From assembly GCA_017481885.1 (NCBI GenBank), contig JAFUOM010000068.1, forward strand, positions 1 through 59,119: a stretch of 59,119 nucleotides of DNA. The letters run 5' to 3'. The DNA is from Ruminococcus sp. (GTDB lineage: Bacteria > Bacillota > Clostridia > Oscillospirales > Acutalibacteraceae). The translations under genes and the position numbers were made by a program. Shown here in pieces: positions 2,836-56,697 of this stretch. The notes below the pieces were generated by a model that was given only the letters and a program-made list of their open reading frames with translations, was not told the origin of the DNA and ran no database searches. The number at the start of each line of letters is the position of its first letter. The first letter of the stretch is position 1.

Positions 2836-3441
2836 ATGAAAAAATCAGTTAGTCTATTATTAGCGGTAGTTCTGCTTTTGTCGGTAGGAATAGTTTCTGC
2901 TTTTGCCGAAGAATCTGCATATATGTACAAATCCGCTTTTGAAACTGAGTATGGCGAGGCTTTGTACTACAGAGAAGTATGCTACTATCCTGAGGATTTG
3001 GACGAATATTATTTAGAATGGATTCTTGTAAAAGGCGCAGTTACAATGGCAATAGTTGACCCGTTGCCAGGCACTAACATAACCAGATGTTATGAAAATA
3101 GTGGTATTCTGTTCTACGAAAAGGATTTATTCCAACCATTCAATACAGCAAACTGTGTATACGATGTAAAGCACGGCGAATTCATTGATATTACCGAAGT
3201 TGATTTTGATAAGTATCCGGGACTGAAAGAAGCTGTGTTAATGAACGATGTGGGTTACTTAATTGGCGACATGGATAGTGACAAGGAAGTTTCTATCATT
3301 GATGCTACTGAAATTCAGCGTATTCAAGCAAAAGTAACCAGCAGTCGTGTTGATGAAAATATTGCTGACTTTGACCGTGACGGCAAACGTACTATTCTCG
3401 ACGCAACAGCAATCCAGCTCAGCCTTGCAAAACACACTTGA
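2836..3441 (+). CDS. Secreted dockerin-domain protein, 201 aa
   Basis: The N-terminus (MKKSVSLLLAVVLLLSVG...AFAEE) is a clear signal peptide. Residues 26-137 form a small domain of unknown function containing EWILVKG. The C-terminus (about 138-200) is a type I dockerin with two calcium loops (DMDSDKEVSIID and DFDRDGKRTILD), each followed by ATEIQ or ATAIQ. Dockerins bind cohesins on scaffoldins, so the protein is probably displayed in a surface complex. There is no catalytic domain. Its N-terminal domain resembles that of the next gene (DWVLVAG...), and the upstream regions are duplicated, which points to paralogues from a local duplication. The ATG follows AAGGAT with good spacing. Confidence 0.85.
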   Translation: MKKSVSLLLAVVLLLSVGIVSAFAEESAYMYKSAFETEYGEALYYREVCYYPEDLDEYYLEWILVKGAVTMAIVDPLPGTNITRCYENSGILFYEKDLFQPFNTANCVYDVKHGEFIDITEVDFDKYPGLKEAVLMNDVGYLIGDMDSDKEVSIIDATEIQRIQAKVTSSRVDENIADFDRDGKRTILDATAIQLSLAKHT

Positions 3442-3473: not shown

Positions 3474-3564
3474 CATTGTAAACAATGCACAAACAGCGTG
3501 TAGAAAATTCTACACGCTGTTTTTTGTTATCGTATTGTCTGCCCAAAATTAAAATGTATAATAA
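3474..3564 (+). repeat. 91-base intergenic duplicate, copy 2
   Basis: Second copy of 2641-2731 (three differences). It holds the terminator of the first dockerin gene (hairpin 3491-3523) and a TTGTCT-N16-TATAAT promoter (3535-3562) for the next gene. Confidence 0.9.
3491..3523 (+). terminator. Terminator after the first dockerin gene
   Basis: Same 13-base-pair stem as at 2658-2690, followed here by a longer T run (TTTTTTG). Confidence 0.85.
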
Positions 3565-6083: not shown

Positions 6084-6118
6084 ACACAAAAAGGGCAACC
6101 AAAACGGTTGCCCTTTTT
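6084..6118. terminator. Bidirectional terminator, first copy of a 32-base direct repeat
   Basis: GGGCAACC/GGTTGCCC hairpin with A5 on the left and T6 on the right, so it can end both the + strand dockerin gene and the - strand membrane-protein gene. Bases 6084-6115 are identical to 8290-8321. Confidence 0.88.
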
Positions 6119-6134
6119 TAATTAAAGTTTATTG

Positions 6135-6893
6135 TTATTCTTCGAGAAGTGATTCGTAAAAAGACTTAAACCACTCAGAATTTGATTGTCTTTTTTTCCA
6201 TAACACATCAAAAGTCATACAAACCTGAGAACCTTCATTATACAGCTTTTCGAATTTCTCGAGTTCATTCAGCTCTGTCATTTCATTGATTTTTAGTAAC
6301 GTCCAGTATAAAACGCCACTAGCTCTTAAAAATTCCATATACACAGCATTTATCTTATCAACATCATTCTTAATATAAAATGCGAACTCAACAACTGAAG
6401 ATGATAAGTATTTGCCCTTTTTTATTACCTCGTCCATTATTTCTCTGAGAGATTCCAGATAATCAAGTATTTGTTTTTCTGCAATTTTTATCGACTGCTC
6501 ACCCTCATACATATCCATAAATTTACTACGTAATTCATTAAGTTCCAAATCAGTATATGTAGGATAATCATCACAAACGCCATATGGAATCTGAACATTA
6601 ATTATCTTGTTCATTCTATCTTCTACAAAAGATTTAAGCTCGCTTTTTACTTTATGGCTGTATTCTTTTTTATTGTATTCATCCTTTTCGGATTTGTTCA
6701 ACTTTACGAGTTCAACAGTTGAAAAAGCACAGGCTATCAAAGAAAAAACAAGTGTACACATAAAGTTTGCTATATCGAAAACCTGTACACTGTCACTAAT
6801 AATTTCGTTAACCACTAGCACAATAGATATTAATAGCATTAATATCAGCGTTGAAAGTCCAATGGTAAGTAGAACTGATGTATTTTTTCTCAT
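6135..6893 (-). CDS. Two-helix membrane protein of unknown function, 252 aa
   Basis: I do not recognise a family. The N-terminus has two transmembrane helices (about residues 8-27 and 38-58) with a short loop between them. About 190 residues of charged, helical, probably cytoplasmic sequence follow. No catalytic motif is visible. It starts 45 bases after the stop of the CARF-nuclease gene on the same strand, behind AAAGGAGA, so the two are almost certainly cotranscribed. Base composition is clearly AT-rich relative to the flanking ftsZ and dockerin genes. The arrangement suggests a partner of the nuclease, such as a membrane effector or anchor; that is inference from context only. Confidence 0.7.
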   Translation of the reverse strand: MRKNTSVLLTIGLSTLILMLLISIVLVVNEIISDSVQVFDIANFMCTLVFSLIACAFSTVELVKLNKSEKDEYNKKEYSHKVKSELKSFVEDRMNKIINVQIPYGVCDDYPTYTDLELNELRSKFMDMYEGEQSIKIAEKQILDYLESLREIMDEVIKKGKYLSSSVVEFAFYIKNDVDKINAVYMEFLRASGVLYWTLLKINEMTELNELEKFEKLYNEGSQVCMTFDVLWKKRQSNSEWFKSFYESLLEE

Positions 6894-6938
6894 AAAAAAT
6901 CTCCTTTTTATTATATTTCATAGGGTATCCCCTAAAAA

Positions 6939-8168
6939 TTAAATAGTTATTTCACTACACAGTTCCAGAAAAAACTCCTGCCACTGTGACTGAGTAAACG
7001 AGTCAACATTAGGAACAAAAATTATATCCATATCTTTCATACGCCTGAAAAAAGCGTCCTCAGATTTTTGGCTGCTACGTTCGAAATCTGATGCTATAAT
7101 AACCTTCTTGGCGTAACATCCGCCAAAACGAGCTGCCACCGTGTTAAGCTTATACGGCTCGGCATCGTTGATGTTTCCGTTCTTACACGAAATAAATACC
7201 GGCGTAAGACCTTTCATCAGTATAACATCCACTTCGTTCTTTGTATCGACCATATTGGTTTTCTCTTTAGCTGAACAATCCCAGTCAATCGTCACACTCA
7301 TATGGCAACTGTCAAAAAACGGTTTTCCGTTTTCTTCCAGTTTTTTTGCTTCCATAGCAACTTTCATTTCCAGAATGTTACCTGCTTTATTCAGTGCTGA
7401 ACGAACACTTTCGCTTTTGTACTTATACGAAACAATCGACCCGTGCTTGTGATAATCCTTTATCAACCCTTTTGAAATTAGAAGATTAACAAAATTATGA
7501 TATGTAACACTTTTTGAAGAAAAATCCACCACCGCACTCTTAAGATGGTTCATATCCAATACCACGTTAATTTTATCGTAACGGCTGTTAAACTTTTCGA
7601 ATTCATTTAGAGTAGAAATTACTTTATTCCAATCCTTAGGTGATTTGCGTGAAATATCCCATAATTTATCCACACTCTTGATACTGCAATGATTACAATC
7701 TGCTTCATCAGAAATAATGCCTGAATGAAGCGAGATAAGCTCTTTTACAGTCAGCGAAAAAGCTTTTGTAAATACAACCTCGTTATCGCAGTCACAATCA
7801 ACAATTTTCCCAGCAGGAATGTTAATCTTCTGAATTTTAAAAGGATATTTATCCTTGTACCTTTCAAAGACAATTCCTAAAGCAAGAATCACCGTATCTT
7901 CACCACCACCAATATCAAAAACACAATCTTTCTCGTTTTTGATGATGTCAGTTATTACGCTGATAATATTCTCAAGGTTGTTTCTGTCAACACCTCTGGT
8001 TGACACTTTAGTTTTTATCCCCTTTGATTTCAAAAAATTCTTGTACAACAGTACTGAATCCTGCATTTGATTTTCAACTCCTATAAAAATCAACTTATCA
8101 GGTTTCACTGTCAACGTGCTAATCATATTTTCAAAAGGCGATTTTTCAAAACATTCAACGATAGTCAT
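6939..8168 (-). CDS. CARF-domain nuclease, DUF1887 / Card1-Can2-like, 409 aa
   Basis: Residues 20-150 form a Rossmann-like CARF region (LIFIGVENQ start; STRGVDRNNLENI helix; FDIGGGEDT loop at 84-92). Residues 220-260 look like a winged helix. Residues 262-400 carry the DUF1887 restriction-enzyme-like nuclease: NILE (E267), NEVDV (D314), FISCK (K329), then ARFGG and KKVIIAS. In Card1/Can2 enzymes, cyclic oligoadenylate from type III CRISPR complexes binds CARF and switches on DNA/RNA cutting. Here the usual TGGTK-like CARF loop reads GGGED, and no cas gene or CRISPR array is in the window. It is the first gene of a two-gene, AT-rich unit with its own promoter. Family call is firm; ligand and target are unknown. 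Confidence 0.85.
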   Translation of the reverse strand: MTIVECFEKSPFENMISTLTVKPDKLIFIGVENQMQDSVLLYKNFLKSKGIKTKVSTRGVDRNNLENIISVITDIIKNEKDCVFDIGGGEDTVILALGIVFERYKDKYPFKIQKINIPAGKIVDCDCDNEVVFTKAFSLTVKELISLHSGIISDEADCNHCSIKSVDKLWDISRKSPKDWNKVISTLNEFEKFNSRYDKINVVLDMNHLKSAVVDFSSKSVTYHNFVNLLISKGLIKDYHKHGSIVSYKYKSESVRSALNKAGNILEMKVAMEAKKLEENGKPFFDSCHMSVTIDWDCSAKEKTNMVDTKNEVDVILMKGLTPVFISCKNGNINDAEPYKLNTVAARFGGCYAKKVIIASDFERSSQKSEDAFFRRMKDMDIIFVPNVDSFTQSQWQEFFLELCSEITI

Positions 8169-8232
8169 AAGCTACCTCTGTTCAAAAAACTGAACTCAAA
8201 CAATTTATATTTAATATGTCTATTATAGATGA

Positions 8233-8262
8233 ATTATAACACAGTATAAAATATATTGTCTA
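8233..8262 (-). promoter_or_regulatory. Promoter of the CARF-nuclease gene
   Basis: On the minus strand TAGACA (8257-8262), an 18-base spacer, and TATAAT (8233-8238), 65 bases before the start codon. A second TATAAT occurs slightly downstream (8222-8227). Confidence 0.55.
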
Positions 8263-8289
8263 TACCAAAACAAGTTAGATGTATTTTAT

Positions 8290-8321
8290 ACACAAAAAGG
8301 GCAACCAAAACGGTTGCCCTT
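8290..8321 (-). terminator. ftsZ terminator, second copy of the 32-base direct repeat
   Basis: Same hairpin as at 6084-6115 with a T5 run on the minus strand. It lies 20 bases after the ftsZ stop and closes the dcw cluster. Confidence 0.88.
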
Positions 8322-8341: not shown

Positions 8342-9427
8342 TCAGCTGTTGAAGATTGACATAATGTCGTAGAATGAATCGTCATCGTCAGAAGAGTCAA
8401 CCTCAACTGTTGGAGCAGCTTCCACCTTCTCTGGAGAAGAGCTTGGGAAAGCCTTAGAATTGTCGTTGTGTGAGCCACAACCAGCAGCGATAACTGTAAC
8501 GCTGATTTCGTCCTTCATATCCTCGTTGATAACAGCACCCCAGATGATGTTTGCTGTTTCACTTGCTTTCTGTGAAATCATTGTTGAAGCAGCATCGATA
8601 TCGTCGAGTGTGATATCAGGAGAAGCTGTGATGTTGATGATAACGCTCTCAGCACCGTCGATAGAAGTCTCGAGCAATGCAGAAGATATAGCCATCTCAG
8701 CAGCAACAGCAGCCTTGTCCTTACCAGTAGCCTTACCAATACCCATATGAGCGTAGCCAGCGTCCTTCATAACAGCAGTAACGTCAGCAAAGTCAAGGTT
8801 AACAAGACCAGGAACAACGATAAGGTCAGAAATACTCTGAACACCCTGTCTTAATACATCGTCAGCGATTGTAAACGCATTCTGTAAAGTAATAGACTGG
8901 TCAGAAACATACTTAAGTCTTTCGTTAGGAACGATAATAAGAGAGTCAACGCAAGCAGCGAGCTCAGCAATACCCTGCTCAGCCTGAGCCATACGCTTTT
9001 TGCCCTCGAATGCAAATGGCTTTGTAACAACAGCTACTGTGAGGATGCCCATATCCTTTGCGATTTTTGCAACGATAGGAGCAGCACCTGTACCTGTACC
9101 GCCGCCCATACCGGCAGTAACAAATACCATATCAGTGTCCTTGAGTAAAGCTGCGATTTCTTCTCTGTTTTCTTCAGCAGCAGCCTGTCCAACTTCAGGC
9201 TTGGAACCTGCGCCCTTACCTCTTGTTGACTTTTCACCAATCTGAATTTTCTGGTCAGCCTGTGAAAATCTTAAGACGTGCTCATCTGTATTTACAGCGA
9301 TGAACTCAACATTCTTAACGTCCATCTTAATCATACGATTAACAGCGTTACCGCCGCCACCGCCGACACCGATTACCTTAATAACAGGTAAATAATCAAT
9401 CATTTCCTTCTCTAACTCAAAAGCCAT
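8342..9427 (-). CDS. ftsZ: Cell division GTPase FtsZ, 361 aa
   Basis: Tubulin-like GTPase that polymerises into the Z ring at midcell. The N-terminal nucleotide fold starts [18 protein letters not shown], the tubulin signature [12 protein letters not shown] is at about 105, and the T7-loop region NLDFADV lies near 205. After about residue 315 comes a short acidic linker and the C-terminal peptide [11 protein letters not shown], in place of the more familiar DIPAFL form; this peptide normally binds FtsA, SepF or ZapA-type partners. Slightly short for the family because of the short linker. The start follows GGGAGGA. It is the last gene of the dcw cluster with its own upstream region and terminator. 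Confidence 0.97.
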
Positions 9428-36240: not shown

Positions 36241-36813
36241 TTAATATCCGATAAATGTAAACAAATTAAAATACCAGTTAAAGCTGTCCTCTGGTAAGAA
36301 GTAAGTATAAGGTGCTGTGAGAATTGCAAACATCAAAGATGCAATAACTCCCTGTTTTTTAGTCAAACCTGAGTTTTTAAAAACCATAAAATAGTCCATC
36401 AAAAATATAGCAACTGCAGCTACCAGCATTGCAGAAATCATAAATCCCACGCTGTACGCAGTAACTATATCCGAATGATTGAGAGTATCATTCATTCCAT
36501 CCATAAGATTATACATAAAACTGTCAATCGGTTCGTCAAAACGGTTGATATAACTATAGCCTACCGCACCACCGAGGAACAAATATCCTGCACCGATAAG
36601 GTCTGCTAAAAATCCAAGTCCCCAAACTTTTAAAATATTCTTCTTGTAAAATTTGCCGTCAAACTTTTTAAACACCACCAGTGAAGCTAACAGCAGTACT
36701 ATTGAGTCAATAATAAAGTTTCCTGTCAGCGACAAAACCCACATCAGCGGATGCATAGTCAAAAGCATAAATGTTGGCAATATCATATTGTAAAGCTTAA
36801 CGTCTTTTTTCAT
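36241..36813 (-). CDS. Multi-pass membrane protein of unknown function, 190 aa
   Basis: About five hydrophobic helices (9-27, 31-50, 62-82, 120-145, 156-172). No transporter, enzyme or signalling motif is recognised. Single-gene unit with a shared terminator. Upstream it carries the same ECF-type promoter candidate as the dockerin genes, which may place it in a cell-envelope stress or surface regulon; this is inference. Confidence 0.7.
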   Translation of the reverse strand: MKKDVKLYNMILPTFMLLTMHPLMWVLSLTGNFIIDSIVLLLASLVVFKKFDGKFYKKNILKVWGLGFLADLIGAGYLFLGGAVGYSYINRFDEPIDSFMYNLMDGMNDTLNHSDIVTAYSVGFMISAMLVAAVAIFLMDYFMVFKNSGLTKKQGVIASLMFAILTAPYTYFLPEDSFNWYFNLFTFIGY

Positions 36814-56444: not shown

Positions 56445-56697
56445 ATATAAAAAGGCGTTGAGCAGGAGAAGTACTTTAAACAAAACCACCAGAGAGAGGG
56501 ATGTATGCTGAAATTCCCTTTGGTCGAGTCTTTAGGAAATGCACCTGTGAGCTTGTGAGGGGAACTAAAGTATCTTCACACGGGAGCTTCCGTTACAAAG
56601 CACAAAGGGTTGGTGCAAACTTGTTTATATGCACCGACTGAATTTGGGTGGAACCACGACTGCGTCGTCCCTATTGGGATGACGCATTTTTTATTTA
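56445..56697 (+). ncRNA. T-box leader, probably tRNA-Cys specific
   Basis: Stem I contains AGAGAG (56491-56496) and a GGGA...TCCC specifier helix whose loop holds UGC (56506-56508), a Cys codon. The T-box sequence TGGGTGGAACCACG (56645-56658) is followed by terminator GCGTCGTCCC/GGGATGACGC (56662-56685) and a T6 run. Uncharged tRNA-Cys should favour the antiterminator and turn on cysE and cysS. The specifier choice fits the downstream genes but is read by eye. Confidence 0.9.

Follow-up and report, generated by a model that had tools for sequence, protein, structure and literature searches.

The stretch of DNA analysed here (the window; 59,119 nucleotides (nt)) is an entire contig (G000:C53) of a Ruminococcus sp. 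draft assembly (G000; 1.94 Mb, 109 contigs, 88% complete). Downstream of ftsZ (8342-9427, minus strand), two further minus-strand genes form an island of ~2.2 kb that encodes a nuclease with a CARF domain and a membrane protein, and that is enclosed by two identical copies of a terminator hairpin. The features of this island are listed below by position.

6084-6115, no strand assigned: direct repeat copy 1, a bidirectional intrinsic terminator with stem GGGCAACC/GGTTGCCC and a loop of 5
6135-6893, minus strand: membrane protein gene, 252 amino acids (aa); no Pfam match above the cut-off and no NCBIfam match
6939-8168, minus strand: CARF-PD-(D/E)XK nuclease gene, 409 aa; CARF domain at ~1-155, nuclease domain at ~260-360
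8262-8233, minus strand: candidate promoter, TAGACA and TATAAT separated by 18 nt, with TG before the −10 element; consensus match only
8290-8321, no strand assigned: direct repeat copy 2, terminator of ftsZ (minus strand), at the site of the single hairpin in relatives

Both open reading frames (ORFs) of the island are intact, with a purine-rich ribosome-binding site seen by eye before each and a gap of 45 nt between them. With a GC content of 33.1% (31.4% and 35.9% for the individual genes), the island is richer in AT than its flanks (40.3% and 43.0%), as stated in the initial annotation of this DNA. Its placement of the unit at the end of the dcw cluster likewise agrees with a reading of the ORFs that involved no family search. 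The promoter that it assigned to the unit stands only in part: the candidate at 8262-8233 is a good match (11 of 12 consensus bases and the TG before the −10 element), but such matches are no commoner in the region (14) than in its shuffles (mean 12.4, standard deviation 3.6). Because of the gene order, with the nuclease first and the membrane gene behind, the 45-nt gap, the shared terminator and the joint insertion described below, a single transcript is favoured, though not necessarily a single function.

Two copies of the ftsZ terminator

The repeats, described in the initial annotation as two identical 32-base terminators bounding the unit, are exact at these positions: the copies are identical over 32 nt and each contains a strong terminator hairpin. 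Copy 1, with a predicted RNA fold of −20.6 kcal/mol (z −5.1), is positioned to terminate both the membrane protein gene (minus strand) and a convergent gene (plus strand) for one of the dockerin proteins encoded in the window. No match to the 21-nt stem-loop was found in 100 shuffles of the window, and a 28-nt core of the repeat, with up to three mismatches allowed, occurs at just these two sites in the 1.94-Mb draft assembly, which led to the rejection of the hairpin as a genome-wide repeat. An integron attC-like site was also rejected, the element being, as judged by eye, a terminator stem with a T run.

To place these copies in context, the ends of ftsZ were compared in 12 relatives, picked by ftsZ similarity out of 150 genomes of the genus. 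In all nine of the nearest relatives sampled (ftsZ DNA identity 87-92%), a single hairpin with the GGGCAACC/GGTTGCCC stem follows ftsZ, and neither island gene is found behind it. The contigs of two of these nine stop 421 and 817 nt beyond ftsZ, yet include the hairpin and non-island sequence. The next gene past the hairpin, by reading, encodes a dockerin protein in seven of the nine (in L078 from DNA only); in L075 it is a gene for an ABC permease, and in L081 one for an unrelated membrane protein of 184 aa. In the more distant relatives (L083-L085), other hairpins stand behind ftsZ. The loop of the hairpin is unlike that of the window in eight of the nine nearest relatives, whereas the two window copies match in loop and flanks, which suggests that the duplication of the terminator is recent.

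The island therefore shows the direct repeats at both ends and the one-copy empty site in relatives that are expected of a mobile element. No integrase or transposase is found between the repeats, where the two genes fill the space. The simplest history looks like the insertion of a gene pair that either brought or created the second copy of the ftsZ terminator. The comparison with close relatives that the initial annotation had proposed is in line with its idea of recent acquisition: all nine show one hairpin and no island at ftsZ, and the nuclease is divergent from the copies of the genus and groups with other clostridia (see below). G025, which belongs to these nine, does carry a nuclease of the family on a different contig, with just 33% identity to that of the window. 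No flanking repeats of at least 16 nt were found within 4 kb on either side of the nuclease at 10 other loci in the genus.

Some further repeats and small genes were observed. A second exact direct repeat, of 50 nt and with a hairpin of 14-bp stem, is located at 2641-2690 and 3474-3523 of the window and flanks a dockerin gene (2836-3441). L082 has one copy of this hairpin, and there the ABC permease gene is followed by the next dockerin gene with no such gene in the interval; in L076, a dockerin gene is in the equivalent place without the hairpin, which counts against simple insertion of the dockerin gene. Across 105 loci (1.41 Mb, some overlapping), hairpin-bearing direct-repeat pairs number four, two of them in the window; the other two exact pairs are in L131 (1710/3720) and L149 (3999/4612) and measure 45 and 56 nt. 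A gene for a 190-aa membrane protein at 36241-36813 of the window resembles, by eye, the 184-aa gene behind the ftsZ terminator of L081, as if the ftsZ slot takes different small genes in different species. Farther along, a T-box leader at 56449-56675 (129 bits) is the only Rfam match in the window above the gathering threshold.

Active site and ligand pocket of the nuclease

The nuclease matches the PADLOC model CARF4--CARF_PDDEXK over nearly its full length (residues 4-383, E 1.5e-22). Against the Pfam family PF09002 (DUF1887, Card1) it scores 15 bits and does not reach the gathering cut-off of 26.4, which is passed in seven of the 12 genus genomes that have the nuclease, G000 not among them. 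When a profile of 11 relatives was compared with the PDB, the best match was Can2 (7bdv, E 2.2e-8), and VC1899 (1xmx) was matched with E 3.5e-6. Residues E267, N311, E312, D314, S327, C328 and K329 are invariant in all 76 aligned family members, although the conservation of S327-K329 is partly selected, as these residues belong to a peptide pattern, one of two, that was used to find most of the loci. E312 and D314 align with the active-site residues E276 and D278 of Can2. As in Can2 and Card1, a CARF domain is thus fused to a PD-(D/E)XK nuclease with intact catalytic residues, and the initial assignment to the Can2/Card1/VC1899 type on the basis of the E267, D314 and K329 motifs is correct, with E312 to be added.

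The ligand pocket is different. The contacts to cyclic tetra-adenylate (cA4) common to Can1 and Can2 are given, in the excerpted text of PMC7969007, as S19, T42, K99 and Y118. In the HMMER alignment, where homology around the pocket can only just be detected, the corresponding residues of the window nuclease are E8, V31, D91 and K114, and the contact residues are not shared. Of the 70 sequences in which position 91 is occupied, 66 have Asp or Glu and none has Lys or Arg; position 114 is Arg or Lys in 68 of 74. Because this conserved pocket carries charges unlike those of Can2, the ligand of the nuclease is probably one other than cA4. For VC1899, the same excerpts describe an orphan outside CRISPR with weak RNase activity, no regulation by cA4 and Arg96 at the position of Can2 Lys99 (PMC7969007). 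These data fit a signal other than cA4 but do not prove a role in defence.

Possible sources of a signal were also considered. In G000, no match was found to Cas10 palm2 (PF22335), the sole cas10 model searched, and within the limits of this one model and a draft assembly the absence of a type III system noted in the initial annotation is upheld. A match to PF22335 would itself be no proof of type III, as the model also matches five of 14 control genomes, including that of E. coli. For SMODS (PF18144), no match was present in G000 and one below-cut-off match (G056) was present among 20 genomes, and a CD-NTase was rejected as the source of the signal on this ground. A CRISPR-free gene of the VC1899 family within another conflict cluster is mentioned in the excerpted text of a 2014 survey of CARF proteins (PMC4012209).

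Distribution and neighbours of the nuclease family

Relatives of the nuclease are present in 12 of 150 genomes of the genus, that of the window included. The full-length copies are 30-35% identical to the window nuclease (26% in G145), and G046 and G091 hold pieces only. In a scan of named genomes, the best 80 of 304 relatives were kept, and genes were called around these and around seven loci of the genus. Six loci were dropped as duplicates and six for having no recognised nuclease ORF, leaving 75 loci with the window uncounted; the genus loci L034, L036 and L037 are also outside this set.

Several proteins recur within ~8 kb of the nuclease. Across the 75 loci, a three-transmembrane (3TM) Rossmann-RyR-like membrane protein (TM-RyR) is found at 29, a ~1160-aa AAA-AAA-M41 protease at 25, an RyR match at 18 and a YbjN-like protein of 158 aa (below the Pfam cut-off) at 12. 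At least one of the first three is present at 37 of 75 loci, or at 37 of 76 in a fairer count that includes L189, a locus with no partner gene among those called; it had been removed as a duplicate of L030, itself outside the set. At E 1e-10, the counts are 25 for TM-RyR, 24 for the protease, 12 each for the RyR and YbjN-like proteins and 36 for any of the first three, with both large partners at 16 loci. By these neighbourhood counts, the clostridial nuclease family is often encoded with the protease and TM-RyR and lacks a regular link to type III CRISPR. Models of ClpA-like proteins and of FtsH are matched by the double-AAA protein, and an HExxH motif is common to six of its aligned members. 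The small RyR protein matches PF02026 directly (E 2.5e-36), whereas the RyR label of the large membrane protein, which has no Pfam match, comes from a custom RyR profile that matches some members, together with Rossmann motifs found by reading.

Association was also observed at the level of whole genomes. The TM-RyR profile (E 1e-3) matches 18 of the 150 genus genomes, several of them remotely, and 10 of the 12 nuclease genomes (hypergeometric P 2e-9, uncorrected for relatedness). With the four genomes from which the profile was built removed, which had been chosen for nearness to the nuclease, the match is seen in six of eight compared with 14 of 146 (P 6e-6, again uncorrected for relatedness). 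A full-length or near full-length protease is found in six of the 12 nuclease genomes and in one of 24 others searched, the 36 having been chosen and not drawn at random. The recurrent clostridial locus (L110-L189, L027-L035) comprises the CARF nuclease, AAA-AAA-M41, 3TM-Rossmann-RyR-like, small RyR and YbjN-like proteins. No description of a locus with a CARF nuclease, AAA-AAA-M41 and TM-RyR was found in the open-licence PMC papers searched, where RyR domains in connection with phage immunity gave one, seemingly unrelated, paper. Annotated single loci include a TraG-like coupling protein and a TIR-kinase fusion (L111), a PP2C protein (L115) and a weak sigma-70 match (L116).

In a tree of the 76 nucleases made by a quick method, the window nuclease groups with those of L110, L112 and L123 (Shimodaira-Hasegawa-like approximate likelihood-ratio test (SH-aLRT) support of 99), and none of the seven included copies from the genus falls in this group. 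Each of the three loci has a same-strand AAA-AAA-M41 gene within 6 kb. In L110, from yak colon and the nearest relative (44-47% identical), genes for the protease, the TM-RyR-like protein, a 1193-aa NTPase-like protein and the nuclease are arranged in a row. Loci with partners cluster weakly on the tree (22 changes compared with 25.8 when shuffled, a value as low being reached in 42 of 500 shuffles), so the partners appear to have been repeatedly gained and lost, or were missed at contig ends. The window nuclease probably represents an orphan effector that was moved here from a clostridial locus independent of CRISPR.

The membrane protein

The membrane protein has two helices predicted from hydropathy only, at ~residues 7-28 and 38-63, followed by a tail of ~190 aa that is predicted to be cytosolic; together with the charge pattern, the two hydropathy peaks suggest a helical hairpin whose ends both face the cytosol. 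The description of an unrecognised two-helix membrane protein holds. Its frame is open, with a codon score of 0.041 compared with at most 0.010 in the five other frames. No credible homologue was found in overlapping samples of 150 genus, 398 family and 394 order genomes, in phages, plasmids, PHROGs or PDB sequences, or among the ORFs around other nucleases, and no close relatives were found in viral contigs. The two genes as a conserved pair could not be retained. The pair is seen once, the proposed search for the membrane protein and its co-occurrence with DUF1887 genes returned none, and separation of the two genes in relatives, which the initial annotation had named as evidence against its proposal, was partly observed.

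Candidate relatives of this protein were rejected, the sequence matches listed here being treated as chance. A truncated TM-Rossmann-RyR partner was excluded by an hhalign probability of 0.7% with the helices unaligned. The match in G022 (E 8e-4, ~80 aa) belongs to a protein that clusters with a neighbour gene of L027 and is glycosyltransferase-like by reading. Four matches in the family sample at 28-31% identity are in broken frames (G480, G159) or are partial stretches of larger frames (G240, G435), and the match in L144 (E 0.013) is to a 712-aa protein.

Proposed mechanism and alternatives

Taken together, these results are best read as a horizontally inserted cassette whose nuclease belongs to a CRISPR-independent clostridial family and responds to a ligand other than cA4, with the membrane protein as a candidate partner; we give this reading a probability of roughly 0.55. 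The two-gene cassette appears to have been inserted by horizontal transfer beside the bidirectional terminator that separates ftsZ from the convergent dockerin gene and, as the comparison with relatives shows, to have left the terminator in two identical copies. The CARF dimer, with its changed pocket residues, is proposed to bind a small nucleotide-like alarm molecule in place of cA4. Binding would open the PD-(D/E)XK site, nucleic acid would be cut in a metal-dependent way, and the infected or stressed cell would then stop growing. The two-helix protein most likely replaces the nuclease-adjacent membrane protein of the kin as an anchor, a sensor or a second effector, which is the weakest step of the mechanism. 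A role in defence is inferred from the family of the nuclease. More tentatively, the CARF nuclease with its non-cyclic-oligoadenylate ligand, the membrane Rossmann-RyR-like protein and the double-AAA M41 protease might constitute an undescribed CRISPR-independent clostridial immune or stress system. The window would then hold a minimal two-gene transplant with a replaced membrane partner, for which the terminator served as the landing site and was left duplicated.

Several observations weigh against the inserted cassette as described. The membrane protein is known once, and no comparison ties it to the nuclease; its match to the PADLOC "2TM effector" is weak (14.3 bits, E 0.0055, residues 8-93) and extends no farther than the helices and ~30 residues. 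In G000, no TM-RyR match is present and the protease is matched only in part, to the degree that FtsH and ClpB would account for, so that another function, or decay, is conceivable for this copy. No partner is seen at 38 of the 75 loci; 7.5 kb is visible on both sides at just 32 of the 75. Neither island gene is matched in phages or plasmids or has close relatives in viral contigs, where the scan detects close ones only. PF22335 is matched in three of the 12 genus genomes that carry the nuclease, never on the same contig as the nuclease. The incomplete assembly, the quick method of the tree and the selected conservation at S327-K329 count on the same side.

Alternatively, the nuclease would be an ordinary, cA4-responsive type III accessory (Can2), its Cas10 complex either recently lost or encoded in a part of the genome that the assembly does not cover. 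The CARF-nuclease fold, Can2 as the best PDB match, the palm2 matches in three of the 12 nuclease genomes and the 88% completeness of the assembly speak for this. The absence of a palm match in G000, the separate contigs in the other three genomes, a model that matches E. coli too, the replaced cA4 contacts and the acidic residue at the lysine position in 66 of 70 sequences make it very improbable. A VC1899-like housekeeping or stress nuclease without a defence role, acting for example in RNA turnover at the membrane, deserves more weight while still being unlikely: VC1899 is an orphan and a weak RNase not regulated by cA4 in the excerpts cited above (PMC7969007), and about half of the family loci lack a partner. 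On the other side, the gene is patchy (12 of 150 genomes), highly divergent and recently inserted, as an accessory gene would be, and some kin adjoin TIR-kinase and AAA proteins, read as conflict genes.

The relation between the two genes admits other explanations. They may be unrelated passengers that shared one insertion at a hotspot of gene gain, the membrane protein having its own function. We consider this doubtful, though the least so of the alternatives: no co-occurrence was found and a nearby single dockerin gene is also bounded by duplicated hairpins, whereas the shared strand, the 45-nt gap, the one candidate promoter, the one common terminator and the low GC of both genes speak for a unit. 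It is rather improbable that the two-helix protein is the guardian of a toxin, keeping the nuclease inactive at the membrane and freeing it on membrane damage. An apparently single transcript with the nuclease first and the membrane gene 45 nt behind would suit such a pair, as would the membrane proteins often encoded near the family; however, the membrane protein stands alone, an adjacent membrane gene is absent from many of the kin nucleases, and the gene order and size are unlike those of common toxin-antitoxin pairs. Finally, both junctions fall inside the repeat of a 109-contig draft, and the island could have been joined to ftsZ through the 32-nt repeat by the assembly. This is the most remote of the explanations, since two false joins, one at each end, would call for a donor that has the same hairpin and is circular or flanked twice, all nine of the nearest relatives have the same stem behind ftsZ, and no further copy of the core was found in the assembly.

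Comparison with known systems

The nuclease resembles several described proteins. Like Can2 and Card1, it has a CARF domain followed by PD-(D/E)XK, with E312 and D314 in the places of Can2 E276 and D278; it differs in that no type III system was found in its genome with the palm2 model, the cA4 contacts are replaced and the score is below the PF09002 cut-off. With VC1899 of Vibrio cholerae (PDB 1XMX), it shares the status of an orphan CARF nuclease outside CRISPR and an NE-x-D...CK core, whereas the Arg96 reported there (PMC7969007, excerpts) contrasts with the mostly Asp or Glu residues of the window nuclease's family. For orphan DUF1887/CARF nucleases such as VC1899, the same excerpts give a solved structure and a signal that is not known (PMC7969007). 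The PADLOC CARF4 group, to which the window nuclease has its full-length match, also has models named _TM and _AAA, and a relative at L027 matches the _TM model weakly (E 3e-5); in the window, by contrast, the membrane part is a separate protein.

For the membrane protein, the two-helix hairpin followed by a cytosolic part resembles the 2TM effectors of CBASS (E 0.0055 with the PADLOC 2TM model). Such effectors are encoded beside a CD-NTase, and the membrane protein differs from them in the lack of a SMODS match in G000 and of a significant family match. SLATT proteins also have a two-helix hairpin followed by a cytosolic part. In the type III-B pair Cami1 and Cam3, a membrane protein is encoded directly behind a CARF nuclease and the two are thought to cooperate, according to the excerpted text of PMC11229360. 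The window membrane gene is likewise directly downstream of a CARF nuclease, although Cami1 carries a RelE-type nuclease and serves type III CRISPR, and Cam3 is likened here by description and not by sequence.

The duplicated terminator offers a checkable model for how small accessory genes enter the ends of core operons without an integrase of their own. The closest comparison is with the clostridial loci that combine a CARF nuclease, AAA-AAA-M41 and TM-RyR: the nuclease is of the same family as that of the window, which has the nuclease only and a membrane protein unlike TM-RyR. This family, of which 76 or more members could be aligned, combines a conserved active site and a conserved pocket of other charge with recurrent neighbours, and so delimits a group for tests of ligand and partners; together with its clostridial neighbours it is a more interesting object than the pair itself.

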